Shown here: positions 2,216-64,000 of the stretch, piece by piece
How positions within the stretch are numbered: position 1 is the stretch's first letter
Layout: each line of letters opens with the position of its first letter
DNA from: Pseudonocardia humida
GTDB taxonomy: Bacteria > Actinomycetota > Actinomycetes > Mycobacteriales > Pseudonocardiaceae
Direction: 5' to 3'
Length of the DNA stretch: 64,000 nucleotides
NCBI RefSeq assembly: GCF_023898865.1
Contig: NZ_JAGSOV010000062.1
Coordinates: forward strand, 1 to 64,000
Translations under genes and position numbers: made by a program
The notes under the pieces: model-generated
What the model saw: the letters and a program-made list of their open reading frames with translations, nothing else
Databases searched by the model: none
What the model was told of the DNA's origin: nothing

Positions 2216-2223
2216 GGCCGCGC

Positions 2224-2655: not shown

Positions 2656-2676
2656 TCGACCCGTCCTCCGAACGGA

Positions 2677-2692: not shown

Positions 2693-2713
2693 GGATGTGG
2701 CTAGCGTGGCCGG

Positions 2714-3811: not shown

Positions 3812-3824
3812 TCCAACCCGACCG

Positions 3825-3853
3825 TTGACACCCCCGCGCCCGACAAGTACTTT
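3825..3853 (+). promoter_or_regulatory. Sigma-70-type promoter for the amide operon
   Basis: TTGACA at 3825-3830 and TACTTT at 3848-3853 are separated by exactly 17 bases, in an AT-richer patch between the amide-binding protein and the FmdB-like gene. This is the best consensus-like promoter in the window. The start codon of the first gene is about 50 bases downstream. Confidence 0.65.
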
Positions 3854-3903
3854 CCTGAGAAATAGTTTCCGCACCGGCCGATGACGACCGTGAGGGGCCC
3901 CCG

Positions 3904-4197: not shown

Positions 4198-4294
4198 TCC
4201 CAGCCCGATCCCGGCCCCCCGGGGCCGCGTCCTCATCGGCCCGTCCGTCGGACGGGCCGCGATCGACCGTGCCACCGAGAAGAGGTGCTCCCGC

Positions 4295-5651: not shown

Positions 5652-6290
5652 ATGGGATCGGTCGGACTGCTGTTCGTCGGCGCCGTGCTGTTCATCAACG
5701 GGGCGATGCTGCTGGGCTGGGTGGACGCGACGTCCGCCGCGCCGATGAACTTCTTCGTCGGCGCGCTGCAGATCATCACCCCGACATACCTGATCTTCAC
5801 CGCGAACGGCGACGCCGACACGATCCTGTCGGCGGCGGGGCTCTACCTGTTCGCCTTCACCTACCTCTACGTCGGGTTGAACCTGACGTTCGGCCTCGAC
5901 GGCACCGGGCTGGGCTACTTCTGCCTGTTCGTGTTCGTCTCCGCGCTGGTCTACTCCGGACTGAACTTCACCCGGCTCGACGACCCCGGCTTCGGCGTGA
6001 TCTGGCTGCACTGGGCCTTCCTGTGGCTGCTGTTCTTCCTGGTGCTCGGCCTGAAGCGGGAGAGCCTGAGCCGCTACACCGGGGCGGTCTGCGCGATCCA
6101 GGGCTGGGTGACGGGGTGGGTGCCCGCGCTGCTGCTGCTCACCGGCACCTACGCCGCGCTCGCGGTCCCGCTGGCCGTGGCCCTCGCCGTGTTCGGTGTG
6201 GTCGTCTTCGGGGGCCTGTACGTCGTCATGGTGCGGCGAGCGGGGCACCCGGACGCGCCGGTCGCACCGGACCGGCACGTCGCGGCCTGA
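5652..6290 (+). CDS. amiS: AmiS/UreI-family amide/urea channel
   Basis: The 212-residue membrane protein has about six or seven hydrophobic helices and no long soluble part, as expected for the AmiS/UreI family of inner-membrane urea and short-chain amide channels. Family signatures are visible at MGSVGLLFVGAVLFINGAM (residue 1), the motif around MNFFVGALQIITPTY, and YLYVGLNLTFGLDGTGLGY. ATG 5652 is preferred over upstream frame extension because AGAGAGGGACGAG precedes it and the family begins with this helix. It should supply substrate to the formamidase encoded just upstream. Confidence 0.92.
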   Translation: MGSVGLLFVGAVLFINGAMLLGWVDATSAAPMNFFVGALQIITPTYLIFTANGDADTILSAAGLYLFAFTYLYVGLNLTFGLDGTGLGYFCLFVFVSALVYSGLNFTRLDDPGFGVIWLHWAFLWLLFFLVLGLKRESLSRYTGAVCAIQGWVTGWVPALLLLTGTYAALAVPLAVALAVFGVVVFGGLYVVMVRRAGHPDAPVAPDRHVAA

Positions 6291-6328: not shown

Positions 6329-7006
6329 ATGCGGGTGCTGATCGTCGAGGACGAGCCCTTCCTGGCCGAGGCCGTCCGCGACGGCCTGCGGCTGGAGGCG
6401 ATCGCCGCCGACATCGCCGGCGACGGCGACACCGCCCTGGAGCTGCTGAGCGTCAACACCTACGACATCGCCGTCCTCGACCGCGACATCCCCGGCCCGT
6501 CGGGCGACGAGATCGCCGAGAGCATCGTCGCCTCCGGCAGCGGCACGCCCATCCTCATGCTCACCGCCGCCGACCGGCTCGACGACAAGGCCTCCGGGTT
6601 CGGGCTCGGTGCCGACGACTACCTGACGAAGCCGTTCGCGCTGCGGGAGCTGGTGCTGCGGCTCAGGGCGCTCGAGCGCAGGCGCGCGCACAGCAGACCA
6701 CCGGTGCGGGAGATCGCCGGCCTGCGGCTGGACCCGTTCCGCCGCGAGGTCCACCGCGACGGCCGCTACGTCGCGCTCACCCGCAAGCAGTTCGCCGTGC
6801 TCGACGTGCTCGTCGCCGCCGAGGGCGGTGTCGTCAGCGCCGAGGAGCTCCTGGAGCGGGCGTGGGACGAGAACGCCGACCCCTTCACCAACGCCGTGCG
6901 CATCACCGTCTCCGCCCTGCGCAAGCGCCTCGGCGAACCCGCGATCATCGCCACCGAGACCGGCGTCGGCTACCGCATCGACACCGAGCGGGGCTCGTCG
7001 CGGTGA
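6329..7006 (+). CDS. OmpR/PhoB-type response regulator without adjacent kinase
   Basis: The 225-residue protein has an N-terminal receiver domain (acidic pair ED near residue 9, phospho-acceptor region AVLDRDIPGP, MLTAA, and the KPF lysine in DYLTKPFALRE) and a C-terminal winged helix (LTRKQFAVLDVLVA, then the recognition region NAVRITVSALRKRLG and GVGYRI). GGGAGGA at 6314-6320 fits a start at ATG 6329. Most such regulators are co-transcribed with a histidine kinase, but none is present here: the next gene is an alpha/beta hydrolase. It starts 38 bases after the amide operon and could be read from it. Confidence 0.9.
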   Translation: MRVLIVEDEPFLAEAVRDGLRLEAIAADIAGDGDTALELLSVNTYDIAVLDRDIPGPSGDEIAESIVASGSGTPILMLTAADRLDDKASGFGLGADDYLTKPFALRELVLRLRALERRRAHSRPPVREIAGLRLDPFRREVHRDGRYVALTRKQFAVLDVLVAAEGGVVSAEELLERAWDENADPFTNAVRITVSALRKRLGEPAIIATETGVGYRIDTERGSSR

Positions 7007-7078
7007 TCGGCGGGGCTTTGCGGACGGGCGCCGGTCGGTCAACCTGGTGGACGACAACGCCGTCAGCCAGGGAGAGCC

Positions 7079-8464
7079 ATGATCGATGGACCCGTCACCG
7101 GTGGTGACCACGGCTGGGCCTTCGGCCGGCCGGTCGTCGACCTCGCCGAGCACGGCTACGTCGAGGAGGAGTTCTTCCTCTCCGGCGACGCCACCACCTA
7201 CCGCCGGATAGAGGGCACTGGGTGGGGTCGCGACGGGCGGTGGCACGCCGAGCCGAAGGGCACGCAGCCGTTCACCACGCGGATGCTCGTCTACCGCCCC
7301 GCCGATCCGCGACGGTTCAACGGCACCGCGGTCGTCTGCTGGAACAACGTCACCGCGGGCTACGAGCTCTTCCACGGCGAGACCCCGGAGATCCTGGAGG
7401 GCGGGTACGCCTTCGTCGGCGCCACCGCGCAGCGCGTCGGTGTGCACGGCTTCGCGGCCGACCCGCAGGGCCTCGCCGCCTGGGACCCGCAGCGCTACGG
7501 GATGCTCGACATCCCGGCCGACGAGTGCTCCTACGACATCTTCGCGCAGGTCGGACGCGCGGTCGGCGCGGACCGCGACACCTCGGGCGTCGATCCGCTC
7601 GGCGGGCTCGACGTGCGCAGGGTGATCGCCATGGGGGCCTCGCAGTCCGCCGCCCGGCTGGCGACCTACGTGAACGCGATCCACCCGCTCGGCCGCGTGT
7701 TCGACGGCTTCCTGCTGCAGATCTACTTCGGGGCCGGCGCCCCGCTCGAAGGCGGCGACCGCACCGTGTCCCCCGCCGCCGGCCCGGGCCCGGCCCGGCT
7801 GCCGCGCGGCGCCAACCTGCTCCGCGAGCTCGACGTGCCGGTGATGGTGGTCAACTCCGAGCTGGAGGCGATCGCCTGCCACGGCGTGCGCCAGCCCGAC
7901 ACCGACCGCTTCGTCACCTGGGAGTCGGCGGGCACCACGCACGTCGCGGTGCAGGCGCAGGCGCTGCGCAACCGGAAGTACGAACGCGAGTTCGGCGTCG
8001 CGCCGCCGCTGTCCGAGCGGATGAACCGCATCGCGATCACGCCGTACTACGACGCCGCACTGCACCACCTGAACCGCTGGGCCGGGGGCGGCGCCCCGGC
8101 GCCCGGCCAGCCGAAGATCGAGTTCGCCGGCGACGAGCCGACCGTCGTGCGCGACGAGCACGGCATCGCGCGCGGCGGGGTCCGGCTGCCGCAGGTCGAG
8201 GCCCCGGTGGCCACCAACAGCTCGGTCCCGGTGAGCACCGACTTCGCCGGCGCGCTCCGCGGGTCCAACCGGCCCTTCACCCCCGAACAGCTCGACGCGC
8301 TCTACGGCGACGAGGCCGGCTACCTGGCGCGGTTCGAGGCGGCCACCCAGCGGGCCGTCGAGGCCGGCGTCCTGCTCCCCCGCGACGCCGCCCCCGCGGT
8401 GGCGGAGGCCGCCGCGGAGTACCGGCGCGCCCGGGCCGCGCACCGCACCCCGATCGGCGGGTAG
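7079..8464 (+). CDS. Alpha/beta-hydrolase-domain protein (Abhydrolase_10-like)
   Basis: This 461-residue protein belongs to the actinobacterial 'alpha/beta hydrolase domain' family. The nucleophile elbow is G-A-S-Q-S with Ser188 (RRVIAMGASQSAARLATYV). Ahead of it lies FNGTAVVCWNNVTAGYE, a family-specific strand. WESAGTTHVAVQAQ near residue 285 may contribute the catalytic His. No signal peptide is seen. It begins at ATG 7079 behind GGGAGAG, 72 bases after the response regulator, so the two may be co-transcribed. The natural ester or amide substrate is unknown. Confidence 0.8.
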   Translation: MIDGPVTGGDHGWAFGRPVVDLAEHGYVEEEFFLSGDATTYRRIEGTGWGRDGRWHAEPKGTQPFTTRMLVYRPADPRRFNGTAVVCWNNVTAGYELFHGETPEILEGGYAFVGATAQRVGVHGFAADPQGLAAWDPQRYGMLDIPADECSYDIFAQVGRAVGADRDTSGVDPLGGLDVRRVIAMGASQSAARLATYVNAIHPLGRVFDGFLLQIYFGAGAPLEGGDRTVSPAAGPGPARLPRGANLLRELDVPVMVVNSELEAIACHGVRQPDTDRFVTWESAGTTHVAVQAQALRNRKYEREFGVAPPLSERMNRIAITPYYDAALHHLNRWAGGGAPAPGQPKIEFAGDEPTVVRDEHGIARGGVRLPQVEAPVATNSSVPVSTDFAGALRGSNRPFTPEQLDALYGDEAGYLARFEAATQRAVEAGVLLPRDAAPAVAEAAAEYRRARAAHRTPIGG

Positions 8465-8524
8465 GCGGTGCGGTCGCGGGTCGGCGGCCCCGATCCGCGG
8501 GGCGCCACCCGCGGTCGACGCGAC

Positions 8525-8953
8525 CTACCGGGCGCGGCCCACGCCGTCGGTCCGGTGCCCAGCGGGCGCCCTGCCGTCGCCCGGCACCACCGCGGCGCCG
8601 GCGAGGTACAGCAACCCGGCCGGCAGGAACGCCACGCCGATGCCCAGCGCCAGCAGCAGGCCCCACCCGCCGACGACCGCACCGGCGAGCAGGTCGACGA
8701 CCCGGGCCGCGACGCCGACCCGCGGAGCCGCCAGCGGGAGCAGGGCGGCGACGACGGGCACACCCAACAGGTAGATCGCCGCGGAGCCGGAGTCCTGCAC
8801 CGTGGACGGCGCGAGCAGCCCGGCGGTGAGGACGACGATCGCCGCCCCGGCCGGCCGGACGATGCGCCGCGCGTCGGCGGGCCTGCCGATCAGCAGGGCG
8901 GCGGCCACCGCCACCACCGCCACGAGTGCGGTCACCACTGCAACGCCGAACAC
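8525..8953 (-). CDS. Small integral membrane protein of unknown function
   Basis: The 142-residue product has four or five hydrophobic segments (VAVVTALVAVVAVAAALLIG, AAIVVLTAGLLAPS, AIYLLGVPVVAALLPL, GGWGLLLALGIGVAF, AGLLYLAGAAVV) and short charged loops. GTG 8953 is chosen because AGGGGGT lies 7 bases upstream and the first helix follows immediately; a longer frame would add a basic, unlikely leader. It converges with the hydrolase gene 60 bases away. I do not recognise the family. Confidence 0.6.
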   Translation of the reverse strand: MFGVAVVTALVAVVAVAAALLIGRPADARRIVRPAGAAIVVLTAGLLAPSTVQDSGSAAIYLLGVPVVAALLPLAAPRVGVAARVVDLLAGAVVGGWGLLLALGIGVAFLPAGLLYLAGAAVVPGDGRAPAGHRTDGVGRAR

Positions 8954-9131: not shown

Positions 9132-9518
9132 GTGACCCGCTCCCCGCGACTCGCCCTCGTCCTCCCCCCGCTCGTGCCGGCCGGCTGCGCCGGCGCCGCG
9201 CCGACCCCCGCCGAGGCCCCGCCCGCCCCGCCGGCCCCGGCCGCGACCGCCGCCCGACCCGCGACCGGACCCCTGACTCCGCCGGAACAGCAGTTCGTGG
9301 AGCGGCTCGCGGCGGTCGAGCCGGCGCTGGCCGAGCAGCCCGAGCAGGCCGTCGGCCGGGGCGAGAGCATCTGCTTCGGCCTGCAGAACGGCCTGCCCGA
9401 GGACAAGCCGGCCGCCAACGCGGTCGAGCGGTTCACCGCCGGCGACCGCCGGCTCTCCGAGGCCGACGCCGCGCAGGTCGTCGAGGCCGCGCGCGAGACG
9501 CTCTGCGCGGCCACCTGA
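9132..9518 (+). CDS. DUF732-like secreted or lipoprotein-like small protein
   Basis: The 128-residue protein begins with a short basic-hydrophobic leader ending in LVPAGC, a poor lipobox (Pro at -3), followed by an Ala/Pro-rich linker. The folded part (QQFVERLAAVEPAL, GRGESICFGLQNG, VVEAARETLCAAT) has two Cys and matches the DUF732 pattern of small exported actinobacterial proteins, whose Cys pair usually forms a disulfide. GTG 9132 has AGG only just upstream, so the exact start is uncertain. Function is unknown in the family. Confidence 0.65.
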   Translation: MTRSPRLALVLPPLVPAGCAGAAPTPAEAPPAPPAPAATAARPATGPLTPPEQQFVERLAAVEPALAEQPEQAVGRGESICFGLQNGLPEDKPAANAVERFTAGDRRLSEADAAQVVEAARETLCAAT

Positions 9519-44839: not shown

Positions 44840-45421
44840 TCACGACCCCCGCAGCAGGTCGGTGGCGTCCTCGGCGAGCTGCCGGTAGGTCCGCACGCGG
44901 TGCTCCAGGGCGGCCCGGGTGAAGCGCTCCGGGTCGGCCCGGCGGGTCTGCCGGCTGCGCTCGGTCCAGAACGCGGTGTCGGGCAGCTCCGCGGCACCCT
45001 CGGGCAGGAACCGCAGCACCTCCCCCGCGACGTCGACGGCGAAGCGCCAGGCCAGCAGCGCCTCCTCGCGCAGGTCGTCGCGGCCACCCGTCACGGCCAT
45101 CTCCGCCTCGACGGCCTGCTCGACGTAGACCTCGGCCATCTCCAACCACTGGCCGGCGTCGATCAGCGTGGACCGGCCCGGACCGAACCGGACCCCGGTG
45201 CGGCGGGCCTCGGCGAGGTCGGCGTAGGCGATCGTGATGCCGAACGGCGCGAACCGCCCGCCCGCGCCGTCGGCGCGCAGGATCCAGGAGATCGGGCCCT
45301 CGACGAGGGTCGTCCAGCCCTCCGGGTCGCCCGGGTCGTCGGGGCCGAGGCCGCCGTCGGCGCGCAGCAGGTCGAGGTAGAGGTGCGCCTCGACGATCGT
45401 CCGTGCCCGCAGCTCGCCCAT
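44840..45421 (-). CDS. Unknown 193-residue protein downstream of the giant SecA-like gene
   Basis: The soluble, acidic product has an alpha/beta N-terminal half (IVEAHLYLDLLRADGG, then PISWILRADGAGGRFAPFGI) and a helical C-terminal half (LDAGQWLEMAEVYVEQAVEA-type, ALLAWRFAVDVAGEVLRFLP and WTERSRQTRRADPERFTRAA). It has no signal peptide or membrane segment and I do not recognise a family. It follows the giant gene by 114 bases on the same strand. In polymorphic-toxin loci that position is usual for an immunity protein, so this is a candidate; a simple unrelated housekeeping role is equally possible. Confidence 0.6.
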   Translation of the reverse strand: MGELRARTIVEAHLYLDLLRADGGLGPDDPGDPEGWTTLVEGPISWILRADGAGGRFAPFGITIAYADLAEARRTGVRFGPGRSTLIDAGQWLEMAEVYVEQAVEAEMAVTGGRDDLREEALLAWRFAVDVAGEVLRFLPEGAAELPDTAFWTERSRQTRRADPERFTRAALEHRVRTYRQLAEDATDLLRGS

Positions 45422-45535: not shown

Positions 45536-48500
45536 CTACGGACGGCTCGGGCCCCACCGGTACCCGACGGCCGTCCCGGAGAAGGGCAGCTCGACCGCGC
45601 CGGTCAGCTGCGAGGAGAACGTGCCCGGACCGCCGGCGGGCCGGTCGATCGTGACGGTCAGCTCGCGCACCGGCCGACCGGAGAAATCCAGGCCCAGCTC
45701 GGCGGCGTGGGCGGCGGTCAGCTCCAACGCCCGGTCCGCGTCCCGCACCAGGTACCGCCCGAACACCCGGCCCGACGCCCGCGCGTCGGTGATCGGGTGG
45801 TGGCCGAGCACCTGCAGGCCGTCCGCGGTGCCCAGCACCACCAGCACCCCGACGGCGGTGAGCCTCCCGTCGGAGTGCGACTCCCGGGCGAGCAGCACCG
45901 CGATGTCGGGGTGCAGGGCGGCCACCGCACGGAGCGCGGACAGGTCGCGCAGCGGCGCCTCCGCGTGCACCCGCGCCTCGGACCAGTCCGGGTGCGCGGC
46001 GTGGGTGAGCTCGTGGCGCCACAGCGCGCCCAGCGCCACAGGGTCGAGCACCCCGTTGGCCAGCGCTTCCCACACGCGGTCGTCGACGTGCACCCGGCGG
46101 TCCGCTGTCGTCCACATCGCGACGTCGGCCGGACCACCCGAGGACGCCGCGCGTTCGGTGAGATCGCGGTGGACGCACACCTCCTGGCAGCCGGCGCGGT
46201 CGAACTCCGCCGGGTCCAGGCCACCGATCCGGGCGGTCAGCTCCTGGCTGCCCACCGCCACCGTCGAGGCGGGGGTTGCGCGCCTCAGGTAGCGGTCGAC
46301 CGCGAGCGCTTCCCCACGGGTGGGCGCGCGGCCGGAGAACAGCGCCGCCCCACCCCGCGGACCCGCCACCGGCGGGCCACGACCCGCCACCGCACCCACC
46401 GGGCGACCGGCCGCGCCGGGCCGGTCGCCGGAGCGCAGACCCCCTCCGGACCGGGTGGCGGGCCGAGCCCGCCCGCGCCGCTGCTGCAGGAGCGAGTCGA
46501 CCACCACGGCGGTGACCTCCGGCCCGCCCTGGCCGTGCACCGACGTCACGCCCTCCTCATCCAGCATCCCGCCGGTGAGCAGGCTCACCAGCTCGCCGCG
46601 GGAGTTGACCACGGCACCGCCGGAGGCGCCGCCGTAGGACCAGCCCAGGAAGCTGAAGTCCTTCAGGTCCGGCCGGTCGTCCGCGTCGAACGGCCGGAAC
46701 GGGCTGACCGGCCCACCGGCCACGGTCAGGAACTGCGCGGTGTCCGAGGCACCGGGGTAGCCGATGCTCATCACCGGCTCACCCGGCGCCGGACGCACCC
46801 GGGCGACCGGCAGGAACGGCAGCGGCCCGCGGTCGTCGTCGAGGGTGAGCCGCAGCGCGCCGATGTCGACGCCGTCGGCGTCCTCGCCGGTGAAGCTCAC
46901 CGGCCCGGACAACCGACCCGGACCGTGCAGCCGCTCGATCCGGCGCTGCACCGCCTCGGCGTCGGGCATCTCCAGCACCCGCGTCCCGATCGTGCGCCCG
47001 TTCCACAGCTCGGCCACGATCGCCTCGCCCTGCTCGCGGGCCCCGTCCAGGACGTGGGCGGCGGTCAGCACCGTCCCGGACGGGTCGACCAGCACCCCGC
47101 TGCCCAGGCTGCGGCCCCCGGCCAGCCGCAGCCGCACGACCGCCCGCGTCACCCGCTCGACCAGGTCGCCGGCCAGCACCGGTCCCGCCCCGACGGCACC
47201 CGGGGCGGCCGCGGCGTAGTCGGCGGGCACCCGTTGCGACTGCACCAGCCACGCTCCCAGCTCGGTGCGCACCACCAGCAGAGCGACCGTGTGCTCGGAC
47301 ATGCCGGCCCTGTTCGCCGAGGTGGTGAGGTAGGACTCCAGCGCTCCCGCGCGGGCGTAGGGCCGCTCCGCGCGGTTCTGCCACGCCCCCGCGATCTCCA
47401 ACGGCGTCGCCGACTCCCCGAGGACCCCGGGGCTGAACACGTCGGGGACCAGGTACCGGGAGAACGTCAGGCCGCGCAGCTCGTCGAGCAGCGACATCAC
47501 CGGGTCGGCCGCCACGCCGATCAGCAGCTCGTCGCCGCGCGCGTCGGGCAGCGCCAGCAGCTCACCGCGGCCCGCCACCGCACCACGGGACACGAACCCC
47601 TTCTCGGTGAACTCCGCGGCCAGCTCCCGCCGCTCGGCCTCCTCCTCGCGGACCGCGGCCGGGTCCCGCAACGGCAGGTAGTCGATCACCATCGGCGCGC
47701 TGCCGCGCACTCCGCCCAGGAGCACCGCCGCGGCCACCCCGGCCGCCCACCGCCGCACAGCCCGCCACCGGGTCGCCTGCCGGGTCGCGGCATCCGGCGC
47801 GGGGTCGGCCGTCGCGGACGCGAACGGCGCTCGGAGGAGGAGCGCCAGTCCGCCGACCCCACCCGCCACGGCCACCGCGATCGCCATCCACCCGCCGGGC
47901 CCGGAGGCCTCCGGCGCGGCCGCGGCACCGGCCGACGCCGCCGCGGCCGGGACCGGGTCCAGCACCGCCGTCATCGCTGTCACCGCCGCGAGGACGAGTG
48001 CCCGAGCGATCCGCCCACCCCACCCGGTGGCGACCGACCCGGTCCGTGCACCGGGTCCGACAGTGGGCGCATCGGCACCGCCGGTCGCCGGTGCCGATCC
48101 ACCGGCCTCCACGAGCTGGAACGCTTCCCCTTCGACGGTCACCACCGTTCCGAGCGGCACCGCCGCGACCCCCGCGACCGGCTGCCCACCCACCAGCACC
48201 GGCGGTGCCCGAGGCATCGCGGCGACGTGCCAGCCGTCCGCGCGGTGCAACAGCAGCGCCGACACGATCTCCGAGCCGCGGGAGGTCCGGACCGCGGCGG
48301 CGACCGACGCGCCGACCGACAGGATCGGCGCGTCCACCGGCTCACGCGTCCCGTCGGCGAGCCGGACCAGCGCGGTCCCGACCGGTGGGGCGATCACGTC
48401 GTTCGCGTCGACACCCGCCGGGACGGCCACGACCCCGCGCATCCGGTCGTCACCGTCGGCACCCGGCCGGCCGAGCACCAGCCGCGGCGAACGCTCGGCC

Positions 48501-51500
48501 GCCGCCAGCACGTCCTCCTCGGCCGCGCCGAGGGGGAAGAGCTCGTTGCCGACCAGGTTGGCGAGCAACGACGAGCCGCCGTCCCGCGTCAACCTGACGA
48601 CCAGGTCGTGCGCGAGCCGGTCCAGCTCCTCCGGTCGCAGGCCCACGCCGACGACGTCCGCACCCGTGACGCCGCTCGCTCGGGCATACCCGCCCACCAC
48701 CGGCCCGTCGACGACCCCGGTGAACGGTCCGCGGTGGGGGAACAGCGACAACGGCCTGGCCGGCAACGTCCCGTGGTGGAGCGCAACGATGGTCGAACCG
48801 CTCGCGGCCCGGCCGACCCGGCCGACCGGGCCACCGGAGCTGCCCTGCACCGCCCACGGGTTGCCGTCGAGCCGGAGCCCGACGGACAGGTCCTGCCGCT
48901 CCTTCGCCACCGCTCGGGCCGCGCTCACCAGCAGGTGGGCGGCACCCGTCGCGAGGTCCGCGACAGCGCCGTCCGGACCGGAGGCCGGGATCACCGTCTT
49001 CGGGAACCCGACCACCGCGGCGGCTTCACCCGCGTCGAGGCGGTCGAAGGACAGCGGTGGGAGCTGCATGCCGGTCAGCTGCGGGTGCACGATCCGGACC
49101 AGCGCCAGGTCGAACTTCCCCCGGTCGATCTGCCAGCGCGCGTCGCGCAGGTCCACCGCCGCGCCGACCGCGACGAGCGCGGCGGCGAAGTCCTCGTCCT
49201 CCGGCTTCGCCACGACCCAACCCGGCACCCGGAGCACCCCGGAGGCGGTGGTGACCTCGACCTGGAGCCTGCCGCCCCGCTTGCCGACCACGTCGGCCAC
49301 GACGTGCCGGTTCGTCAACACGTACCCGGTGACGCCGTCGACCCGGTGGAGCACCCCGGAGGCGACGAACCGCTCGCTCCGCCCGCCGTCGGCGGGCGGC
49401 ACGGTGCTGGTGATCCGGACGGTCCGGGCCACCAGCGGGTGCGGCTCGGTCCCCAGCTCGGCGCCCTGCCACGCCGACTCCGCACGCCCGTCGTCGATCT
49501 CGACGAAGTGCCGGGGCCGACCGGCGACCGGTGCCACCGCGCCGAACCGCCAGACCACGCGGTTCGAGGCGGACAGGGTCAGCACCGCCTCGAACTGCGC
49601 CCGTCGGGCCCCCGCATCCACAGCGCTCGCGGCGGTGCCGGCCCGCGGGTCCAGGTACGCGGTCCCGTCGAGGACGCCCACCGTCGCATCGCGCGGGCCG
49701 CCCGCCGCCGCCACCGCCTCCGCCAGCCCGTCGACGACGCACAGCCCGAGGCATCCGGCGGCGCGCAGCTCGTCGCCGGTGAGACCGCTCAGCGCCGTCG
49801 TGGCGGGGTCGCCGACGTCGAGCCGGTGCACACCCGCTCGACCGTGTTCGACCTCCGCCGCCAGCCCGGACACGACGTGGGCGACGACGGCGGCGTCCTG
49901 GGCCCGGGCACCTTCGAGCAGCCCCAGGATCCGCTGCGCGTCGTGGCTGTGGCCGCCGCGTGCGGCGCGGAGCAGGTGGAAGCGCCGCTCGTGCCCCAGC
50001 ACCTCGTCCCACAGCCCGTACCGCAGCAGCTCGGCGAACCGCTCCGCCGGCACCACGATCACACCCAGGCCACTCACCCGGTCGCGCCAGCTGAACGCGT
50101 ACATCCGGGCGGCGAGGTCCACCGCCCGGGCCGGGTCGGCCCCGACGGCGCGGAACGCGCTGACCAACTCGTCGAAACCGACCTCCAGCAGCCGCTCGTC
50201 CGACTGCAGCCCCGCCTCCGGCGGGCCGCGCCCCGGCACCGAACCCACCGGAGCGGCCGCCAGCCGGTCCGCCCACCACTCGGCCACCGCCTGCGCGACC
50301 AGCGCGTTGTCCTCCGCCTCGTACCCGTCCTCGGCCAGCGCGCCGGGCCGTGCCACGGGCGGCCCGGCGGCGTCCAGCTCCGCGACGCGGCGGGCCACCG
50401 CCGCCGACACCGCGGCCCGGATCTCGGCCTTGGTGACCGCGACGTGGAGCCCGGGGCCGTCGCTCGCCGGGGTGAGCCGGTGCACGGCCACCCCCGCCCG
50501 ACCGACTCCGGGGTAGCGGCTGCGGAACTCGGCCAGCGGTACCGGGCCCCCCGATCCCTCCCACTCCACGAAGGCGGCGTTGATGCGGCGCAGCTTCTTC
50601 TCGCTGATCTGGGGGACCATCGCCTTGACCGAGGCCTGCAGCTCGTCGAGCGAACTGGCGGCCATCAGGTACAGCCGATCGAGCAACTGCTGCTCGTGCG
50701 CCTGGCGGTACTTGCCCGAGTCGAGCTTGACGCTGACCGACGCCCGCGCGCCGGCCGGACCGACGATCAGATAGTCGATCTCGGCGAGGTCGGCGCCCAC
50801 CTTCCCCGACTGCGCCAAGGCGAACAGGTGCACGTTCTTGAGCACCGCGTCCGCCGGCCCGGCCAGCTGCTCGACCTCCGGGCGCGCCAGCTCCTCGAGC
50901 ACCGCCCCCGCGACCTGCCCCACCCAGCCCTGGGCCGTGGTGTAGCGCTGCGGATCGGCGTGGTACTTCGCCCGCTCCGCCGCGGCGAGCAGCACCCCGC
51001 CGTACTCGCGAACCTCCGCGTCGGCGATCCCGACGAGCCGTGCGGCACCGGGCGCGAGGGGCGGACCGCGCGGACTGTCCAGCTCGGCGATCCGCTGGGT
51101 CACCGCCGGGGCGGCGGCGGTGGCTGCGGTCGGCGCACCGCCGACCGCAGCCCTCCCCTGCCGCCCGATGATCCGGTCGGCGTCCGCACGGTGCTCGGCG
51201 CCGTGCGGGTCGTCGTGTCCCCGCAGGTGGAAGCGCCGCTCGTGCTCCAGCACCTCGCCCAACAGGCCCGAGCGCCGCAGCTCGGCGAACCGCTGCGCCG
51301 GCACCACGATCACGCCCAGACCGGTCGCCCGATCGCGCCAGCTGAACGCGTGCATCCGGGCAGCGAGGTCCACCGCCCGCACCGGGTCGGCTCCGACGGC
51401 GCGGAACGCGCCGACCAACTCGTCGAAGCCCACCTCCAGCAGCCGCTCGTCCGACTGCAGCCCCACCTCCGGCGGGCCACGACCCGGCACCGCACCCACC

Positions 51501-54500
51501 GGAGCGGCCGCCAACCGGTCCGCCCACAGTTCGGCCAGCGCCTGCGCGACCAGATCGTTGTCGGAAGCCCCGTACCCGCCCTCGGCCAGCGCGCCGCCGC
51601 CGCTGAAGCTGCCGGTCGAGGCCGTGCCGCCCAGGTGGGCGCTCGGACCGGGACCCCAGCGGGGCGCCGGGAACGGCGTCCCCTCCGCCCGCGGCACCTC
51701 GACGGCGTGCGCACGCTCGCCGTCGATGCCCCATCCGGTGCGGCGAAGACCGGCGAGGTCGTTGGCGAAGGCCGTCAGGTACGCCACGCCCTCCACCAGG
51801 TCCGGCAGCACCCGCTCGCTGATGGTGCGGGAGGCCGCGCCGCCGCGGACGACGACCCGGCGCACCGTCAGGTGGTACAGGACCGCGGCCGCGATGGTGC
51901 TGGCCGTGCCCTGCTCGTACACCGTGGTCTCGTAGCGCAGCCCGTGCACGGAGTTGCGGCCGTGGCTGGACTGGTCGAACACCGCACCGCCGACGCTCAG
52001 CGCGGTCGGGTCCGCCCCGAGGCCGCCCGACAGCGTCGGGAACGGCAGGTGCGAGGTGCCACTGGCCGTGTTGACCTGGTCCTGGTCGCGGAAGACCGTG
52101 CGGATCTCGACCTTGCCCCGGTCCAGGACGATGAACCGGTCGGCGCGCAGCTCGGCGCGCAGCTCCACGTCGACGAACTCGCCGGGCCAGCCGGGCACCG
52201 GGATCCGGGCCATCCGCACCCCGTCGGGCGTGGCGATGCGGTCGAGGAACACGCTCAGCGCCACCGGGGCCAGCACGTGCTCCAGCAGGTGGCGCTGGTC
52301 CGCGGCCACTCCAGGACCGAGGAGGTCGCGGCTCGACAGCGCCTCGACCAGGGGCGCGACCAGAGCGGCGCCCCGGGCGTCGATGCGGACCTGCGCCGGC
52401 AGGGTGAACGGCACCCGGGCCGCCGGCTGGGTGCGCCTCCGGGCGGCCTCCGCCTCGGCGACAGTCGTGGGTTGGACCAGACCGTCGGGCAGCAGGCGGA
52501 TGATCTCGCCGTCGAGCGCGCGCACGACGGCTTGCGTGGGCCCGGCCCGGTGGACCGCGGCCGCGGCCCCACGCCGCAGCCACGCCGGCAGGGTGCGCGG
52601 GTTCGGCGTCTCCTGCCACACCTGGAGGCTGAGGGTCACCTGCTGGCGGACGCGGTCGGCGCCCTCCCAGGACGCCACGCCGCGCAGCGTCGTCGCCTGG
52701 GCGGACGGCGACGACGACCGGGTGCGGTCGCGGCCGGTGCCCAGCCCGGCGCTGGGGCCCAGGACCGGCGAACCCCACGCCGAGAAGCCCGTGTCGCCCC
52801 CGATCTCGGCCCCGGGCCCGCGCGTGTGCCGGCGTGCGGCGTCGCGCTGCTGGTAGGCGTAGTCCTGGATGATCAGCCCGACGGTGTCGGTGCGCCCGGC
52901 CAGCGTGGGCAGCCCGGTGAACCGGGCGTCGACCGCGATGTGCAGCCGTCGGGTGCGGGGGAAGAACGCGCCCAGGCCGCCGGTGCGGGTCCGCACCGGC
53001 ACGGTCAGCTCCATGCCGCCGGAGCTGAACATCCGGTCGAGGTGCCCGCGCCAGCGCTTGCCGGTGAACTGGTTGGACAGCCAGTTCCACAGCATCTGGT
53101 CGTCGAGCAGGCCGGGGACGGCCTCGTCGACCGCGCCGACGATCTCGTCGAACAGCTCGGTGTGCCGGCCGCCGTGGTGCAGGTCCGCACGCTCGACGAC
53201 GGCCTCGCCGACCGTGTCGCGGAACTGCTCGGGCACGTCGACCACGAGCTCGGCCTTGGTCAGCGCCGCGGCGGAGCGCAGCACGTTGCCCAGCGCCAGC
53301 GCGCCCGGCGCGTCGCCCGGCACGTTCGGGAGTTTCGCGTCGCGACGGCGCTTGAGCTCGTCGTTCACCTGCTCGACGACGTAGTCGCGCAGGCGGTCCG
53401 GCTTGTGGTCGACGGCCATCCGGCCCGCGCCGGCGCTGTCGTCGAGGTAGCGGCGCAGCACCTGCCGCGTCGTTCGCAGGTCGAGCAGGAGGTCCTTGGC
53501 GAGCATCCGTTCCACGGCGTCGGCCACCACGTCGATCGGCAGCTCGAACGGCTTGCCGTCCTCGTCGCGGGTGGCCCGTGCGTAGTTGTCGATCACGTCG
53601 CGCTCGGGGATCGCGTGCACCAGGTTGACGTCCACCGCCGGCCGGGAGCTGACGAACTCGTCCCCGACCGCCACGTCGATCGACATGTCCATCGTGCTGA
53701 TGTGGTGCTTGCCCAGCTCGATGCTGAGGAACTCGCGGCCCCAGATCCCCAGCGACGACCAGGAGGCGCTGCGCCCGCGCCCGTAGGTGCCGCCGGGCTT
53801 GAACCCCCAGCGGGGCGGCAGCAGCTGGCTGAACCCGAATCCGAACGACCCGCCGGCGCCACCGCCGACGGACCGGCCCTGCTCGGCGCCGAGCGAGTTC
53901 AGCGTCAGGTTGATGTCGCCGGTCAGCAGCGACGCGACGGTGAGCAGCTTGCTGTGGCCGTAGCGGCCGCGCAGCGTGACGTCGACCCACTTCGTCCAGC
54001 CGATCGGCGTGCGCATCGGCACCCGGACCCGCAGCCCCGACGTGGTGAGGTCGAGCAGCGACGCGCGCAGTCGGTCGGGACCGGCGAGTTCGTGCAGCAG
54101 CTGCTCGCCCTCGGGGCCGAGCGTCAGCAGCGGGTGCTTCCTCCTCAGCGCGGCGCGGATCTCCTTGTACAGCCCGCGGGCGTCGAGCGAGAGCGGCACC
54201 AACCGGGTGCGCGCCCAGTCCGGGAGCGCCTGCGGGGTGCTCGAGACGTACCCAGGGCTGTCGGGCAGCAGGTCGGCCGCCACCATGATCGACGCGTTGA
54301 AGTTCCACCGCGGGTCGCTGAACCGGTGCACGACCTTCCCGTGTCGGCGCACCGTCACCGTGACGACGTGCTCGACCTGGAAGCCCGCGGTCGCGCCCAT
54401 GCCCTCGACGAGGGTCACGACGTTGACCGTGGTCCCGATGCTCTGGCCGGCGCTGCGGCCCCGGCCGATCCGCGCGTTCAGACCGATGCTGCGGGTGCCC

Positions 54501-57500
54501 TCGGTCTGCATCCCGGGCTCGGGGCTCTGGTCGAGCCCGACGCTCCCCGCCCGGCCGGCGTCGGCGCTGTAGCCGCTGCCCCACGACGATCCGGCCGACT
54601 GGCCCGAGGTGTTGGACTGGATGTCCAGCCCCACCTTCGTCCAGGAAGTCGTGTAGCCCTGGTATCTGGCCCCCTCGTTCCGGACCCCCCACAGCGGTTC
54701 GAGCTCGACGACCACCTGCACCCGCTGCGCGGTGCTCAGCCGCAGCCACCGCGACCGGGGCACCTCCAGCGTCATCGCGAGGCCACTGGTGACGGCCTGG
54801 TCGTAGCCGGTCTCCCAGCGGTCCGGCGAGATCAGGTCGCGCAGGTCGCGCAGGTTGGCCTGCTGGATGGCCCGCACGGACTTGTTGGGGACCGGCCCGC
54901 GGCCCGGGAGGAGACCGGTGCCGCGCAGCTTCGCCTCGACCGCCGCGCGCACCAGCTTGATCTTGTCCCACGGAACGTCGCGGACGAGCCCGTGACCGAC
55001 CGTGCGGACCTGGCCGACGCCGTTGCCCAGGAAGTCGGGCGCGCGGCCCTCCCGCCCCGGGGGCGCGTCCTTGATCAGCTCGCCGCGCAGTCGGACGGAC
55101 CCGCCCGTCTTGTCCGCGGCCGCGGGGTCGATGGGCAGGCCGTGCATGTAGGCGTCGTACTCCGCCATGCGCAGCAGCACGTCACCCTTGCCGTGCACCT
55201 CCTGCGACGACCCGCGCCGGTTCAGGTGCTCGACGCGCACCGTGTACTTCCAGGGCACCGAGTAGGCCTGGGAGTACCCGGTGTAGCGGTGCACACCGGG
55301 GCGGATCGCGGTCTGGTTGCTGCTCAGCCCGGTCGACGCGGTCGTCGACCAGTTGCGGCTGACGCCCGCGGACGGCTTGTACGGCGACGCGTCCTGCAGC
55401 GCCGCCCCCGCGAGCTCCGCCGAGAGCGCGTGGGTCCAGCCGGTCGATGCGCCCGCCGACACCGTGGCCGCGACCGTGGAGAACCAGACGTGCAGGTCCT
55501 CGAGCAGCTCCTTGCTGGAGGCGCGGCCGACCATCCGGGCGTTGGCCAGGTCCGGCGCCGCCGTCACCACCAGCTGCGCCTTCGGCCGCCCGAGCCGGTC
55601 GGTGACCTCCATGCGCAGGTCGTCGGCGTCGGCGGTGTCCAGCCGCGCCCCGAACTCCGCGATGAGGAAGGCCCGCAGCTGGGCGCGGGTCAGCCCACCG
55701 ACGCGCGCGCCCCGGCCGAGCTTGGCCGCGACCGCGTCCACCAGGTCCTCGAGACCACCGACCGAGATCGGCGCGTAGGCCGGGAACGTTCCGAACCGCG
55801 TCCCCGGCGTGTCCTTCCACTCCCGCTGCGGCGGGCCGCGCTCGTCGTAGGCGTGCGACACCCACAGCGTGGTCATCTCGGCCTGGCGGGCGGCGTCGGT
55901 GTAACCGCCCTTCAGGGTGGCAGGGCGCGCATTGCCGATCGATGCGACCTGCTCCCAGGTCCGCTCCTGCTTGCGCGTCGTGCGGATCGACAGCTGCCAC
56001 TGCGCGTCGACCTCGTACAGCGATGACGGGCCGCGGTTGTCGGAGACCCCGCCGCCCAGTGCGTAGCTGCCGGCGGAGATCGACCGCGAGTGGTTGCTCG
56101 ACCGGTTCTGGGTGAGCGAGAACGTGACGCTCACGGCCTCCCGCAGCTCGGCCAGCCTGCCGTGGACCAGCAGGTCGGCCATGGCGAGCAGGTCCACCTT
56201 CGAGGTCACACCGCCCCTGCGCTGGCCCGAGGTGGAGGCGCTGGCCAGCCCACCGCCCTGCGGCATGCTGCCGATCATCAGCTCGGCGGCGACCCGGCCC
56301 CAGGCCTGCGCGGGATCCAGCACCGCGCTCCAGCCCAGCGCCTTCCACACGACCTTGATCTCCGCGGCGACTCCGCCGAACACGGGAACCCCCGCCGGCC
56401 ACTCGAACGCCGGGACCGGCAGCACGAGGCCCTCGGGGGTGGCCGCCCGCCGGAACTGGGCGCGGACCGCCGCGTCCAGATCGGCCTGGGTGTAGCGGTG
56501 GCGCAAGCCGCGCTGCTTGAGCAGCGCGTTGACCCGCTTGGTCAGCTCGTCCAGCCGCGGCAGCCGCCCGGTCACGATGCCGGTGGCCAGGGCGATCTCT
56601 TCGGGCCTCGTCGCGGCCAGCAGTTCGCGGTACTCCTTGACCCGCTCGCTCGCCGTCTCGGCCAGTCCCACGGCCTGGTCCGCGGGGGCCGCAGCCAGCC
56701 GCACGTAGGCCTGCTGCGCGGGCTCCAGTCCGGCGATCGCCGCCTCGTGGGCCGCGACGATGCGCGTCGCCCTGGTCTCGACCTCCTTGGCGAGGTCCAG
56801 CTCCGCCTCGGCCTTGCGCACCCCCTCCTTCTGGCTGCGGTCCTTCTTCCCCTTCGCCTCCTTGACGGCCTCCTCCTTGGCCTTCTTCTCCTTCGCGGCC
56901 TCCTTCAGCTCCTCGTTCCGGGCGGCGAGAGCCGCTGCGAGCGCTTCCTCCTGAGGGGCGCCCAGCAGGTCGAACATGCGGTCCACCTCGGCGGCCAGGC
57001 GCTGCGCGGCGGCGGCGGGGTTCGATCCGGTGAGGTCGCCGGCCGCCTCCTTCACCGCCGAGGCGTCGGCCTCGAGGTCGCGGCGCAGCGCGGCGCGGTG
57101 GCGGGCCGCGTCGCGCGCGGCCAGCGTGTCGGGACCGGCGAGCTCCAGGAGGCTGGTGGCCTCGGGGATCAGCGCGCTGTGCTCGGCCGACCGCGCCGAC
57201 TCCTCGGCGAGGAGTTCGCCGGCCGCGCGGGTGCCCGCCTCGAGGAGGTGCGGCTGGGCGTCCACCTGCTCGGCGAGGGTGTTGAGGGCCGCGACCACAG
57301 CCGGCACGTCCTCCGAGCCGACCAGGAGGCCCAGCCGGGCGAGGGCGTGCACCGTGCGCCGCTGCTGGGCCGCCGCCAGCTCCGTGGGGTCGGTCAGCTG
57401 CGGCTGCCCCGGGGGTGGGGTCAGGAACGTCGTCGCGGCGACCACGTCCTCCATGGGGACCGTCCACTCGTCACCCGTCGGGACGTACCGGTCGAACCAG

Positions 57501-60500
57501 CCGCTGCGGGGGCGGACCAGGAGCTGGCCGGGCTTCCAGGACAGCTCCCAGTCCACCGTGACCGCGGCGTCGCGCAGCGCGACCAGGCCCGGCCACCAGC
57601 CGCCGGCCAGCGCCTCGGCGTCGACCAGCAGCACGTGCACGCGCTCGAGCAGGGCGCCGCGGAACCGGTGCCGGTCGGCCCAGGCCGCGGTGAACTCGGC
57701 CTCGAGCGCGGCCAGGACGCGGTCGCGCTCGGTCGTCGGGCTCGCGTCGGACGCCGGTGTGGCGAGCAGGCGCATCGTGAACGCGTACTCGGCGATCAAC
57801 AGGTCGACGGTGGCCTCCGGCAGGTAGACCGCGCCGGCGATCCGGTCGATCGCCACGCCGGTCTCCGCGACCCGGTGCATCTGCTCGGAGAGCGGCCAGC
57901 GCGTCCCGGCGTCGCCGATGTCGTGCGTGCGGCGGTACTCGGTGAGCTCGGCCAGCGCCGCACGCTGCTTCGCGCGCGCCGCCCTGGCGGCCTTCCACCG
58001 CGGCCGGGCCTCGATCAGCCACTTGACGCTCCAGCGGCCGGCGCGCCACGCCAGGTACGCCGTGCCGACGCCGATCGTCCACCTCTCCAGCCAGGCCGCC
58101 CAGCCGCCGCCTTCGTCCGCGGATGCCGCGGGCGGGGCAGGCGCGTCCGTGCCCGACGGCGCGGGCGCGGTAGGCGTCGTCTGCTCGACCGAGGTCGTGG
58201 GGTCGCCCGACGGCGCAGGCCCGCTCGCCGGAGCCGGCGTGTCCGCCGGAGCCGGCGAGTCCGAGGGGACCGGCAGGCCCGACGGGGCCGGCGTGCCGGT
58301 GCCCGACGGAGTCGCGGTGCTCGACGGCGTCGCCGTGCTCGACGGCGCACCCGGCTCGACCGGCGCGTACGCGAGGACGGCGCTGCTGGTCTGGGCCGCC
58401 GCTGCGGGGGTCATGAATCCGGATGCCACTGCCGCCACCGGCGAGAACGCCAGGGCGAGGAACATCGCGGCGACGGCGGACCGTCGGGCGAGGGCCGCGG
58501 GGGGACCGCGGGCCAGGGCCGGCGCCCACAGCTTGCGCAGCGCGGGAGTCGCGAGGACGACGGTCCCCGCGCCGAGCAGCGCCGGTCCGACGACGGCCCC
58601 GGCCGGCAGCACGGCCAGCCCGCCGCCGACGAGGGCGATCGCTGCGCCGGTGGCGACGACGGCACGCGGTCCCTGCGGCCGCGGTGAGCCCGGCGTGCCG
58701 TCCGTCCGGCCGGTGCCGGCGCCGGCGTCCGTGCTGGAGTCGGCCGGTACGGCGGCGGCCGGCCCGGCGGCCGCGACCACCTCGGCGATCAGCGCGGCCG
58801 CGGCCAGGTCCGAGTAGCCCGCACCGAGGTGGCGCAGCGCGCCCGACGCCTGCTCGACGACGGCGGCGCGCTCCGCCTCGGTGAGCGCATCGGGATCGTC
58901 GCGGACCCGACCGAGCAGACCGGTGGCCGTTGGCGAGAGCACCAGCATCCGCTCCACGCCGCTCATCTGCATCAGCGTCGGGACGTCCAGCCCGGCCTGC
59001 TCGACCAGGTCGGCGGTGTCCGGCCCACCCAGCCCGAGCGTGCCCAGCAGCACCTGGCGCAGCCCGGCCTCGGTCCACGCCGGCGTGTCGGTCAGGTCGG
59101 CGCCGCGCTGCCAGCCGGCCGCGATCCGGTCCCGCTGGGTGGGCCGGCCGAGCAGGGCCCGCACGGCGGCGAGCGCGGCGGCGTCGAGGCCCGCGGCGCG
59201 CAGGCCCTCGTCCGTGGTCCCCCGCACCTGGGTGCGGGTGGTCAGCCCGGCCGAGACCAGCGCGGCGTAGACCCCCTCCCGCATCGCCGGCGGCAGCTGG
59301 CCGACCATCTCCTCGACCCGCTCGCCGCGGTTCCACAGGGGGCGCTCAGCGCCGTATAGCCCGTCGTCCTCGGCGGTGCGGAGCCGGTCGCGCGCCTCCG
59401 CCCACTCCGCGACGAGGCTGCCGGCCTCGGCCGCCACCTGGTCGCGAACGCCGGCCTCGGTGCGCACGCCCCGTCCGTCGCGGGTGCGCAGGAGCTCGAT
59501 GGCGGTGTCGACGTACCAGGCGACCGCCTGCACGTCGACGCCCATGCCCGCGGCGATGCCCTCGATGTCGACGCCGCGGGCGTAGTCGTGGAAGGCCCGC
59601 AGCAACCGGGTCTGCAGCGTGTTCAACCGCAGCGGCTCGCCGTCGGCCGGTCGCTCGGCGGCCGTCGGCCGGGCCCGCCAGCCCTCGCCGCGCTCGTCGA
59701 GCAGGCGACCGGCGATCGTCACCGCGGCGGCCACGTCGGCCAGGTCGCTCGCCAGCCGCTCGGCCAGCTCGCTCGAGCGCTCCAGCTCCCGGAACGCCTC
59801 CTGCACCTGGGCCATCTCGGTGGTCAGGGCCGCGATGTCGGCCTCGGTGACCGGCTGCGCGACCAGCCGCGGCGCCGGGATGAGCTCGCCCAGCTCCTGG
59901 GCGGCCAGCGCCCGCTCCGCCTGCAGCGCGTCGGCGAGCACCGTCTGCGCCAGCGTCCGGGCCCGCTCCAGCTCCGGCTCGGACAGTGACGACAGGGCGG
60001 GCACGGGCTCACCGGCGACCAGCGCGGCGAGCGCGGCAGCGTCGAGGTCGGCGGCGTACCCGAACGGCATCGCGTCGAGGTCGGCGAGCCGGTCGTGGGT
60101 CAGGACACCGGGCTGCACGTCGGACTCGCGGCCACCGCTGCGTGTCGTGGCGGCCGCCAACCGGGACGCCGTGATCGCGTCGGACTGGGAGCGGGCCAGG
60201 TCGAACAGCACGCCCACGGCCGGGGCGTCCATCGCTCCGGCGTAGCCGCCCGCGGGCCGCTCTGCGGTCAGCTCGACCTGCGCCCGCTCGCGCAGCACCT
60301 GGTCCTCGAGCGAGCGGTGGATCCGGGTGGTGCCGTTGGCGCCGTTGCGGCCCGACCGCCCGCGCAGTTGCTCCTCGATGCGGGCGTTGCGGGCCGAACC
60401 GATGCCGATCATGTGCAGGCCGCCGCCCTCGACATCGAGCTGCGCCCGCTCCGCGGCGATCTGCGCCTTCGCCTGCCGGGTCGCCGCCTCCCGCGCCCGC

Positions 60501-63500
60501 GCGTAGGCGGGGCCGGCGCTCGGACCCTGGTAGTCGCGCAGCATGATCTCGTCGCGAACCGCCCGGACCTCACCGCCGAGCTTGACGTCGACCGCGCGCC
60601 CGGCGATGTCCGTGGCGACCGTGACCGCGCCCCTGCGCCCCGCCCCGGCGGTGATCTCGCTCTCCCGCGCCAGGTGCTCCGCCATCGCGGTGAGCAGCTG
60701 CGGCTCGACGCCGTGCCGGCGGAGCAGCGCCTCGACGGCCTTCGCCTCGGCCACGGTGGAGACCCGGATCAGCACCGGATAGCCCTGCTGGTGGGCGGCC
60801 AGCGCGTCGACGACCGCCGCCTCGCGCGCCTGCGCCGTCGTCGCGTGGGTGATCGGGTCGAGGTCGATGCGCTTCGAGGCGCGGTACGGCCACACGTGGG
60901 TGACCTGCTTGCCGTAGGTCCGCGCGAACAGCCCGCGGCCCGCCGCCCCGCCGACGGTGCCGGTCATGCCGGTCCACTCGGCCTTCTCGAGCAGCTCGTG
61001 GGCCTTGATCGAGTCGATGATCCGGGTCGGCGCGCCGACACCGCGTTCGCCGAACTCCTTGAACTCGATCGCCTCGTGCAGCCCGTCGCCCAGCCTGCGC
61101 CCGACCAGCGGCCGGTTGTCCTCGGCGAGCAGGACGATCGAGCCGTCCTCGACGAGGTAGTCGTGGTTGCGCCGCTTGCCGTACTCGGCGATCAGCGCGT
61201 TCTCCACGCGACGGCGCATCCCGGCGTTCTCGGCCTTGCGCAGGTCGATCGCGCCGCGCTCCAGCCCGGCGATGTGCGCGACACCCGACTCGGTGAGCTG
61301 GAAGGTGCGCGGGTCGTAGTGGCCGTTCGGGTTGTCCTTGGAGACCGGCTTGAGCCCGGAGCGCGCGGCCCAGCGGGCCGCGTACAGGTCGGCCAGCGGC
61401 CGGACGGCGTCGGGAACCTGCTCGCTGAGGATGAACGGCACGGGGCCGTCGTCCAGCAGGACCAGGTCGATCTCGTCGATCAACCGGAACGCGATCTCGC
61501 GCTTCGGCACCACGACGTTCTGGGTGCGCTCCCGCAGCACGTCGAACGCGAACTCGCTGACCGCTCCCACGACGATGTCGGCGCGGTACGCGGCGGCCTT
61601 GCCCTCGGCCGACCGCTGCCCGGTCAGCAGCTCCACCTTCAGCCCGAACTGCTCGGCGATGCGCCTGACCTCGGGCACGACGTCGGCCGCGAAGCGGTCG
61701 TTCGGACTCCACCACTGCACCGAGGTGCCGTTGCGGCGCTCCAGCAGGGCACGGGCCACGAGAGCGATCGACCCGGTCAGGGTCTTGCCCTCGCTGGTCA
61801 GCATCTCCACCACGCGCGCGTCACGCGCGAGCGCGATGGCACCGACCACCTGGTTCGGCCGCGGCGTCCGCTCGGGCTGGTCGCGGCGGGCGACCTCGCA
61901 GACGACGGCCACGCACTCGAGCATCGCGTCCGCGACGGAACGCTCCCCGCGCTCGACCTGCTCGGCGAGCCTGTCGGGCCGCTGGCGCAGCGCATCGTCG
62001 GTCCACTGGCGGAACTCCCGCCCGTAGCCCGCCGCCGCCCGGAGGTCGGCGCGGTACTGCGCGCGGGCCTGACGCCACTGCTCGATCGCGTCGCGGACGC
62101 GCGCCCCCACGCCGGCGGCCTGGGTCGGCGCCTGCGGGGTCGAAGCCGTGTCGTCGGGGATGGCACCGGCGGCTGGTGGGCCGCGGGCGCTGGTCCCGCC
62201 GGCGTGCGGGGCCGGGGCCTGCTCGGCGCCGTTGGGGCGCGCCGGAGCGGACGGTTCCAGCGTGCGGCGCGGGGGCAGCGGACCGGTGACGCCCGGCTCC
62301 CCGCCGCCGCTGCCGCCCGGCGACGCGGCGGTGCGGCCGCCTGCGCCGACGTTCTCCACCGGCGGCACGGTCGGCTGGCCGTGCGGTGCCCGGCTCGGGT
62401 CGCGCGGCGCCTGCGGGGCGCCGCCACCGGAGGGCTGTTCGGGGCTGCGGCCGCCGGGTGGCGCCGCGGCCGGATCGCCGGCGGGAACGCGACCGGTCGG
62501 GCTCGCCGACGGCTCGCCCGCCGGGGCCCGGGCACCGGACGCGTCCGCCGCAGCGGCCTGCGCCGACGCAGCCGGTTCGGGCGCTGCGCTCGCGGTCGCG
62601 CCGTCAGCGGAGCGCGCTCCAACGGGCTCGCTCGGGCTCTGGACGGTCGGCTCGGCCTCGGCCCGCAGAACTCCCGCCGGAGCGGTCGAGCCGGCCGCGC
62701 GACCGTTCGTACCGGCCACGGGCTCCTGCGGCCCGGCGGGGCGGGCCGGCGCGGCCGGCCTGATCGGCCTGACGACCGGCTCGGTCACCGGGCCCGCACC
62801 GGCGGCGGCCGGGTCGCCGATCCGGGCCGTCGGGGCAGCCGGCCGGACCACCGGAGCGGCCGGCGCACCGGCGCGCACGGGCGCCGCAGCAGGACCGGCG
62901 GCGGGCTGGACGACCGGCTCACCGGCACCGGCGGCCGGGGCCTGCACGCTGCGGGAACCCGGCTGGACCACCGGCTCACCGACAGCCGCGGGAGCCCCAC
63001 CAGCACGAGCACCCGGCTGGACGACCGGCTCACCAGCGGCCACCGGAGCCGCACCAGCACGAGCGGTGGGCTGCCCCACCGGCTCGGTGGCAGGCGCAAC
63101 CCGGCTCCCCGCTGCGCCCACCACCGGCTCACCGGCCCGGCTGCCCGCGGAACCGGACGCCGGCTCACCGCCGCGGACGGGGGCGACCACCGGGTCGGCG
63201 ACCGGCGCGCCGGCCTGTGCGTCGCGGCCGGCGGCCGCGGGGCGCGCGACCGGCTCCGCCGCCCCGGCCTGGCCGGGGACGGGCTCGGTGGCCCGCACCG
63301 GGACGTCGCCGGGTCGTCCGGCCGTCTCCTCCGCCATCCGGGCGCCCGACGCGGCAGGCTCGGCTGCCGGGGCTCCGCGCACCGGCGCGGTCGTGGTCGT
63401 GTCCCGCGCACCCGTCGGCTCGGCTCCGGGCTCGCGGCCGAGGACGAGCTCGTCGGGAGCCAGCCGCTGCGCGGGGCGCGGCTCCTGCCGGCCCGCGGCC

Positions 63501-64000: not shown

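Follow-up and report, generated by a model that had tools for sequence, protein, structure and literature searches.

Arrest peptides of the RAPP family (ApdA, ApdP, the SecM type and those of S. lividans) tend, in the available sections of the published accounts, to be small, to carry the motif near the C-terminus and to be encoded upstream of another gene. RGPP is presented in the accessible part of one report as the most robust arrest core in reporters, refractory to EF-P, and as the tetrapeptide that falls furthest below its expected frequency in ten of 17 bacterial groups; the same part credits S. lividans with nine RAPP/RGPP proteins in total, of which all seven tested (7/7) gave arrest with S. 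lividans ribosomes, and states that the motif by itself is insufficient and that the preceding residues matter (PMC12992588). RGPP, HGPP and RSPP are listed, in the portion available of a second report, among the motifs of ORFs that cluster with the RAPP ones (PMC10987492). The Pseudonocardia humida frame described here resembles these peptides in its motifs but is not a small secretory protein with one motif near its C-terminus: it has many internal sites, nine RGPP and one RAPP in 10,121 codons, as against the nine RAPP/RGPP proteins given for the whole of S. lividans, and the nine RGPP are spread over the frame. Giant actinobacterial multi-toxin proteins are similar in being very large and modular with peptidase domains; the sections available of the survey that describes them mention SecA only for Amoebophilus effectors, and not for the multi-toxin proteins (Zhang et al., 2012; PMC3482391).

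The frame was detected in a window of 64,000 nucleotides (positions 1 to 64,000 of contig NZ_JAGSOV010000062.1, here C35, in an assembly of 8.3 Mb and 129 contigs), of which it occupies 45536..64000; this and all further features of the giant lie on the minus strand. The window part comprises frame residues 3968-10121 and the stop codon (45536-45538). As the preliminary description had it, this is a single unbroken frame, open to the window edge and on to C35:75901, with a typical coding pattern throughout (GC at codon position 3 of 0.87-0.97 in 21/21 tiles of 500 codons). That description proposed to seek the N-terminus beyond position 64000, and the present analysis adds the first 3,967 codons: the start codon is likely to be the ATG at C35:75658, which has a GGGAG stretch just 5' and would give 10,040 residues, alternative start codons having been listed as well. 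ARAGORN called a tRNA-Arg (gcg) at window 62374-62456 on the plus strand, antisense within the coding sequence, probably falsely. An ASA-type c-region accompanies the hydrophobic segment with which the sequence after the likely start opens, much as in signal peptides, and frame residues 82-700 are 41% Lys, Glu and Asp. Cysteines, counted after the likely start, fall mostly in residues 701-3160 (98/111), with 42 spaced pairs in 701-2760, and are nearly missing downstream of the N-terminal half, a partition that would fit an exported and oxidised N-terminal half with the remainder in another setting. A stretch that is half Ala, Gly, Ser and Thr with 17% Pro (4101-4600) leads to the SecA-like motor (4601-5240), a cluster of hydrophobic membrane-like segments (5700-5826; 58424..58804), a beta-rich block (about 6400-8060), two HERRFH modules (8061-8700), a first protease, more membrane-like segments (9301-9356), a second protease and a HELTH module; the membrane segments noted earlier are thus found again, as membrane-like segments.

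Similar giants occur within the genus. A motor search of 40 relatives found frames of 5,679-58,239 codons in 8/24 same-genus genomes and in 0/16 from other families, and a giant-specific N-terminal block was found in 21/62 genomes of the genus, in 2/249 of a family sample (both in the genus, with 0/233 among the others) and in 1/394 of a class sample (its own genome), the family and class samples being less sensitive than the genus scan since at most seven and four candidates, respectively, were scored per genome. The named close homologues, P0002, P0003, P0005, P0006 and P0007, are also from Pseudonocardia. A class-wide search and a scan of named genomes by motor alignment were discarded as swamped by ordinary SecA; the 80 matches listed in the latter were 29-33% identical, and none among the matches listed was titled Pseudonocardia. 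Eighteen giant frames (246,667 aa) were compared; three from genome G010 are open at the contig start, one at both ends, and the G021 and the 8,912-codon G012 frames run off the stretch or contig. Sixteen of the 18 match the motor, the exceptions being two G012 frames (8,057 and 8,912 codons). In 13/15 frames with a closed 5' end there is a hydrophobic segment within the first 230 residues. The C-terminal halves vary between paralogues, so that a constant N-terminal part is combined with variable C-terminal modules, the arrangement typical of polymorphic toxins. PP2C (6 tiles) and Trypsin_2 (5 tiles) were the commonest recurrent domains in 32 tiles of eight other giants, and relatives' modules also include aspartyl and rhomboid proteases. 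The 58,239-codon frame (G012:C3:815157-989876; L036-L045), with coding-type GC, is to our knowledge among the longest bacterial frames known; of its 32 tiles 30 were scanned, and among them they hold a SecA-like motor, rhomboid, MFS, PP2C, FHA, GGDEF, TauE and other domains. Another G012 frame (C3:68607-191448; L216-L222) has 40,947 codons and 25 RGPP against 1.34 expected. An earlier description of the giant family was not found in the literature searched, bioRxiv and most subscription journals lying outside that search.

The SecA-like part lies at 60281..62020, where the preliminary description had put it, and NBD1, the preprotein cross-linking domain (PPXD) and NBD2 all pass the Pfam cut-offs. 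The full set of motor motifs claimed for it (P-loop, DExD, TGT and QxxGRxGR) is present, giving the combination of domains and helicase motifs by which SecA is recognised, and structure comparison of the predicted model supports a SecA fold. It scores below the curated SecA equivalog TIGR00963 (283.1 bits against a cut-off of 800), and it differs from the SecA1 and SecA2 translocase ATPases in being embedded in a 10,000-residue protein and in giving no Pfam match to the wing/scaffold domain at E 0.01; alignment ends by model residue 673 in the structural SecA rows. As regards the coiled coil of the preliminary description, the model has helices after the motor. The same genome encodes an ordinary SecA too, in a 993-codon frame. 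In a tree, a branch with 100/99 support separates 16 giant motors from 14 SecA1 and 5 SecA2-like sequences. It is conceivable, if improbable, that the motor has lost its function and that what remains is a large scaffold of the surface or envelope with enzyme domains as passengers, as the missing wing/scaffold match and the long branches of some giant motors might suggest. Such a loss is hard to reconcile with the 13 giant motors that were aligned, which are 30-44% identical to that of the window and in which the G-K-T, the E and D of DExD, the T-G of TGT and the Q, R and R of QxxGRxGR are all invariant, or with the retention of the protease-1 triad in relatives.

The long beta-rich region of the earlier account is also real (51722..56704, frame residues about 6400-8060) and is predicted to be a membrane beta-barrel by a model that covers 53402-56704. 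Foldseek matches to perforin-like pores, with TM-scores of about 0.1, were not accepted as evidence of homology. The block is common to WXG100-like (CpnT-type) proteins of the actinobacteria Nonomuraea and Sphaerisporangium, at 25-31% identity; these proteins differ at both termini, and no SecA motor was found by Pfam in P0008 and P0009 and no RGPP in any of the six beta-block relatives outside the genus (P0008-P0013). The locus set used for the block and for the RGPP site at 6688 was without L154 and L162, for which an incorrect frame had been picked and whose giants were represented by other loci, and without L156, L164, L165 and L167. The HERRFH modules (51161..51553 and 49916..50338, limits from the BLAST match) look metal-binding by eye and have relatives in several copies in the G017 giant, P0006 and P0007, with no family match. 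Both Ser-protease triads and the HExxH motif that had been reported are complete. The Trypsin_2 profile matched two stretches, namely protease 1 (48782..49384, limits approximate; H8866, D8931, S9022) and protease 2 (46586..47104, the best PF13365 stretch; H9616, D9679, S9760). The HELTH module, metallopeptidase-like, spans 45923..46288, with HELTH itself at 46001-46015, from frame residue 9963. P0006 (twice) and giants of G004 and G008 retain the protease-1 triad; for protease 2, comparison with the other giants gave no relative at E 1e-4. HExxH is retained in P0006 (twice), in a G010 giant and in one of the G004 copies but changed in a second G004 copy and in G008 and G012. PADLOC, as a search for a defence system, gave nothing beyond a weak LmuA match (E 7.1e-6) in the protease/HELTH tail (window 45539-51121). 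The preliminary description had pictured a self-driving export or effector machine whose motor could move its own or a partner's C-terminal part and whose proteases would mature it, and this is supported in part. A motor-pore-protease layout is a fair description of this second half because of the SecA fold and ATPase motifs, the retained triad and HExxH, and the predicted barrel. The motor, which gives no wing/scaffold match, might conceivably move its own chain; protease 2 lacks a relative among the giants, and the HELTH residues are altered in three other copies.

Such a layout raises the question of whether the giant is mainly an effector of the polymorphic-toxin type, whose barrel would form a pore in a neighbouring cell with the motor and proteases acting inside. 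We consider this possible but doubtful as the principal role, and it is compatible with ribosome arrest. The predicted barrel and the differing C-terminal halves of paralogues would suit it, as would the company that the beta block keeps outside the genus, where 5/6 relatives have a WXG100-like domain and 2/6 a glutamine deamidase toxin domain. However, no toxin family was found in the giant's tail, and other giants carry PP2C, MFS, rhomboid, FHA and GGDEF domains. The preliminary description had proposed to look for a WXG100 partner past position 64000, and a WXG100 domain did not appear at the N-terminus either: Pfam matched none in frame residues 82-867 or 868-3967, where diverged forms could escape it. 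Nor was an immunity or secretion gene recognised among nine neighbouring genes, three of which had no match at all. The six that could be named (aldehyde dehydrogenase, two PaeA/CNNM-like proteins, a RecQ-like protein, a Sco1979-type regulator and an iron-alcohol-dehydrogenase-like protein) are ordinary and give no functional hint, and a 193-aa gene at 44840-45421 had no NCBIfam match. A conserved operon partner was considered over 14 contigs and dismissed; some flanking families are seen again in three to five of the contigs, and at the window's locus relatives near other giants exist for only four genes, none of them adjacent to the giant.

The unexpected feature of the family, which lay beyond the reach of the preliminary description, is its arrest-type motifs. 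Within the window, RGPP occurs at frame residues 4573, just before the motor (62174..62185); 5798, between membrane-like segments (58499..58510); 6688, inside the beta block (55829..55840); 8141 (51470..51481); 8278 (51059..51070); 8558 (50219..50230); and 9841, before the HELTH module (46370..46381), with RAPP at 9231 (48200..48211). Across the 18 giants there are 118 RGPP against 7.1 expected by composition (16.7-fold) and 24.8 by a Markov model, with 3 to 12 in every one of the 18 at very uneven spacing. Among tetrapeptides seen at least 25 times RGPP has the highest ratio to the Markov expectation; by composition alone some Cys-repeat strings and one Lys-rich string rank above it. When flanks were clustered, 81/117 contexts were independent. 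Also raised were RAPP (40 against 10.2), HGPP (12 against 1.7) and RSPP (10 against 3.9), so that the giants carry the RAPP-type motifs beyond chance, and other PP tetrapeptides such as GPPP, STPP and APPP were up three- to fourfold. RGPA, AGPP, AAPP and GRPP were not raised in the 18 giants, nor were KGPP (1 against 1.8), RAGP and RDPP, the last two being arrest-type or avoided as well; the remaining 11 arrangements of R, G, P and P gave 1 to 32 against 7.1, the 32 being PRGP. Three further giants, all from G012 (also the source of three of the 18) and one of them cut by the stretch end, repeated the enrichment (43 against 2.55). The 58,239-codon giant contains no more than 10, where 1.65 are expected, and they thin out in its later part. 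In contrast, RGPP and RAPP were depleted in a sample of 595 ordinary genes from three of the genomes (3 against 9.2 and 4 against 13.3), called in 800 kb and two loci by a codon-position GC rule and no gene finder, so that the three RGPP may include miscalls; avoidance of HGPP and RSPP there was not clear (1 against 2.3; 4 against 4.6). RGPP was likewise absent (0, with 1.30 expected) from a small control set of 25,487 aa analysed earlier.

It is unlikely that RGPP marks a DNA motif, such as a recombination or signal site, since the 118 sites draw on all six Arg codons. The one DNA pattern counted there covers 63/118 sites; over 14 contigs it also turns up 23 times in other sense frames and 49 times antisense, a count that decides little by itself. 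The Pro codon CCA is enriched at RGPP (33/236, against 6/228 flanking prolines), as if slow codons added to arrest. No RGPP falls within the motor domains (8,060 residues in 13 motors), and the link between RGPP and the edges of homologous blocks is weak. The position homologous to 6688 is RGPP in P0006, RAPP in P0007 and other residues in the beta-block relatives outside the genus.

The motifs also have a preferred setting. In 26 proteins (the 18 giants, the three further G012 giants, P0002, P0003, P0005, P0006 and P0007), 35% of 176 independent [RH][GAS]PP contexts have a membrane-like segment 5-45 residues upstream, against 13.4% at random, and no significant upstream excess was seen for the near-miss motifs RGPA, RGP[GVST], AAPP, AGPP, R[^GAS]PP and [^RH]GPP. 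The N-end of the upstream segment lies preferentially 20-60 residues from the stalled position, with a peak at 30-40 and baseline beyond 70. In E. coli, a membrane helix begins to exert its pull once its N-end has come to about 45 residues from the PTC, and the pull ends once its C-end has reached that distance (PMC7886326); the giants' peak is shorter, and the two windows overlap without coinciding. Downstream segments are as common as upstream ones (36% against 13.5% at random), so upstream pulling would leave them unexplained. In the window's own giant, one of the nine RGPP sites (5798) lies between membrane-like segments.

An alternative explanation is that RGPP is a protease site and the giant a polyprotein cut by its own or another protease. 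The strictness of RGPP, repeated 3 to 12 times per giant, the trypsin-like, rhomboid and aspartyl proteases in several giants, and the placing of several of the window's sites ahead of modules would all be expected of it. We nevertheless regard it as distinctly unlikely: the raised set of RGPP, RAPP, HGPP and RSPP is that listed with arrest peptides, KGPP stays at 1 against 1.8, unlike a trypsin-type specificity, and no trypsin-like Asp is seen by eye six residues before either active Ser. The sites are frequently near membrane-like segments and very unevenly spaced, and their flanks show the same disorder propensity as random positions, which also disfavours RGPP as a plain linker.

The reading that we put forward, with an even chance of being correct, is that the giant is modular, anchored in the membrane and synthesised at a pace set by ribosome arrest sites within its own sequence. 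The signal-like N-terminus, Cys-rich half and motor shared by the family, together with its variable tails and arrest-type motifs, point to a membrane-anchored machine assembled in paced steps. We propose that the N-terminus would direct the nascent chain to the membrane, that the Cys-rich half would be exported and oxidised, and that the SecA-like ATPase, made next, would fold on the side with ATP, to be followed by the beta-barrel pore block and the protease-bearing tail. RGPP and RAPP would halt the ribosome at set points, in the family often beside a membrane segment, and folding, insertion or export would then pull on the chain and release the arrest, so that modules may mature in order. 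The second half of this member, judged from its domains, probably serves to move or process protein, either at the envelope or into a neighbouring cell. A bolder and rather unlikely extension is that later arrests are released by a pull from the motor carried on the nascent chain itself, in which case the protein would drive and monitor its own assembly across the membrane and represent a class of genes with many internal arrest checkpoints.

The arrest sites so far described lie near the ends of small proteins and are avoided in proteomes, whereas here the tetrapeptide most strongly avoided elsewhere ranks among the most enriched, and within the same genomes the giants are rich in RGPP while the ordinary genes sampled in three of them avoid it. 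If these sites do stall ribosomes, they would amount to a programmed, multi-step pacing of bacterial protein synthesis, linked to a SecA-type motor that is part of the chain itself, and they would offer a way into the question of how proteins with 10,000 to 58,000 residues can be made and inserted.
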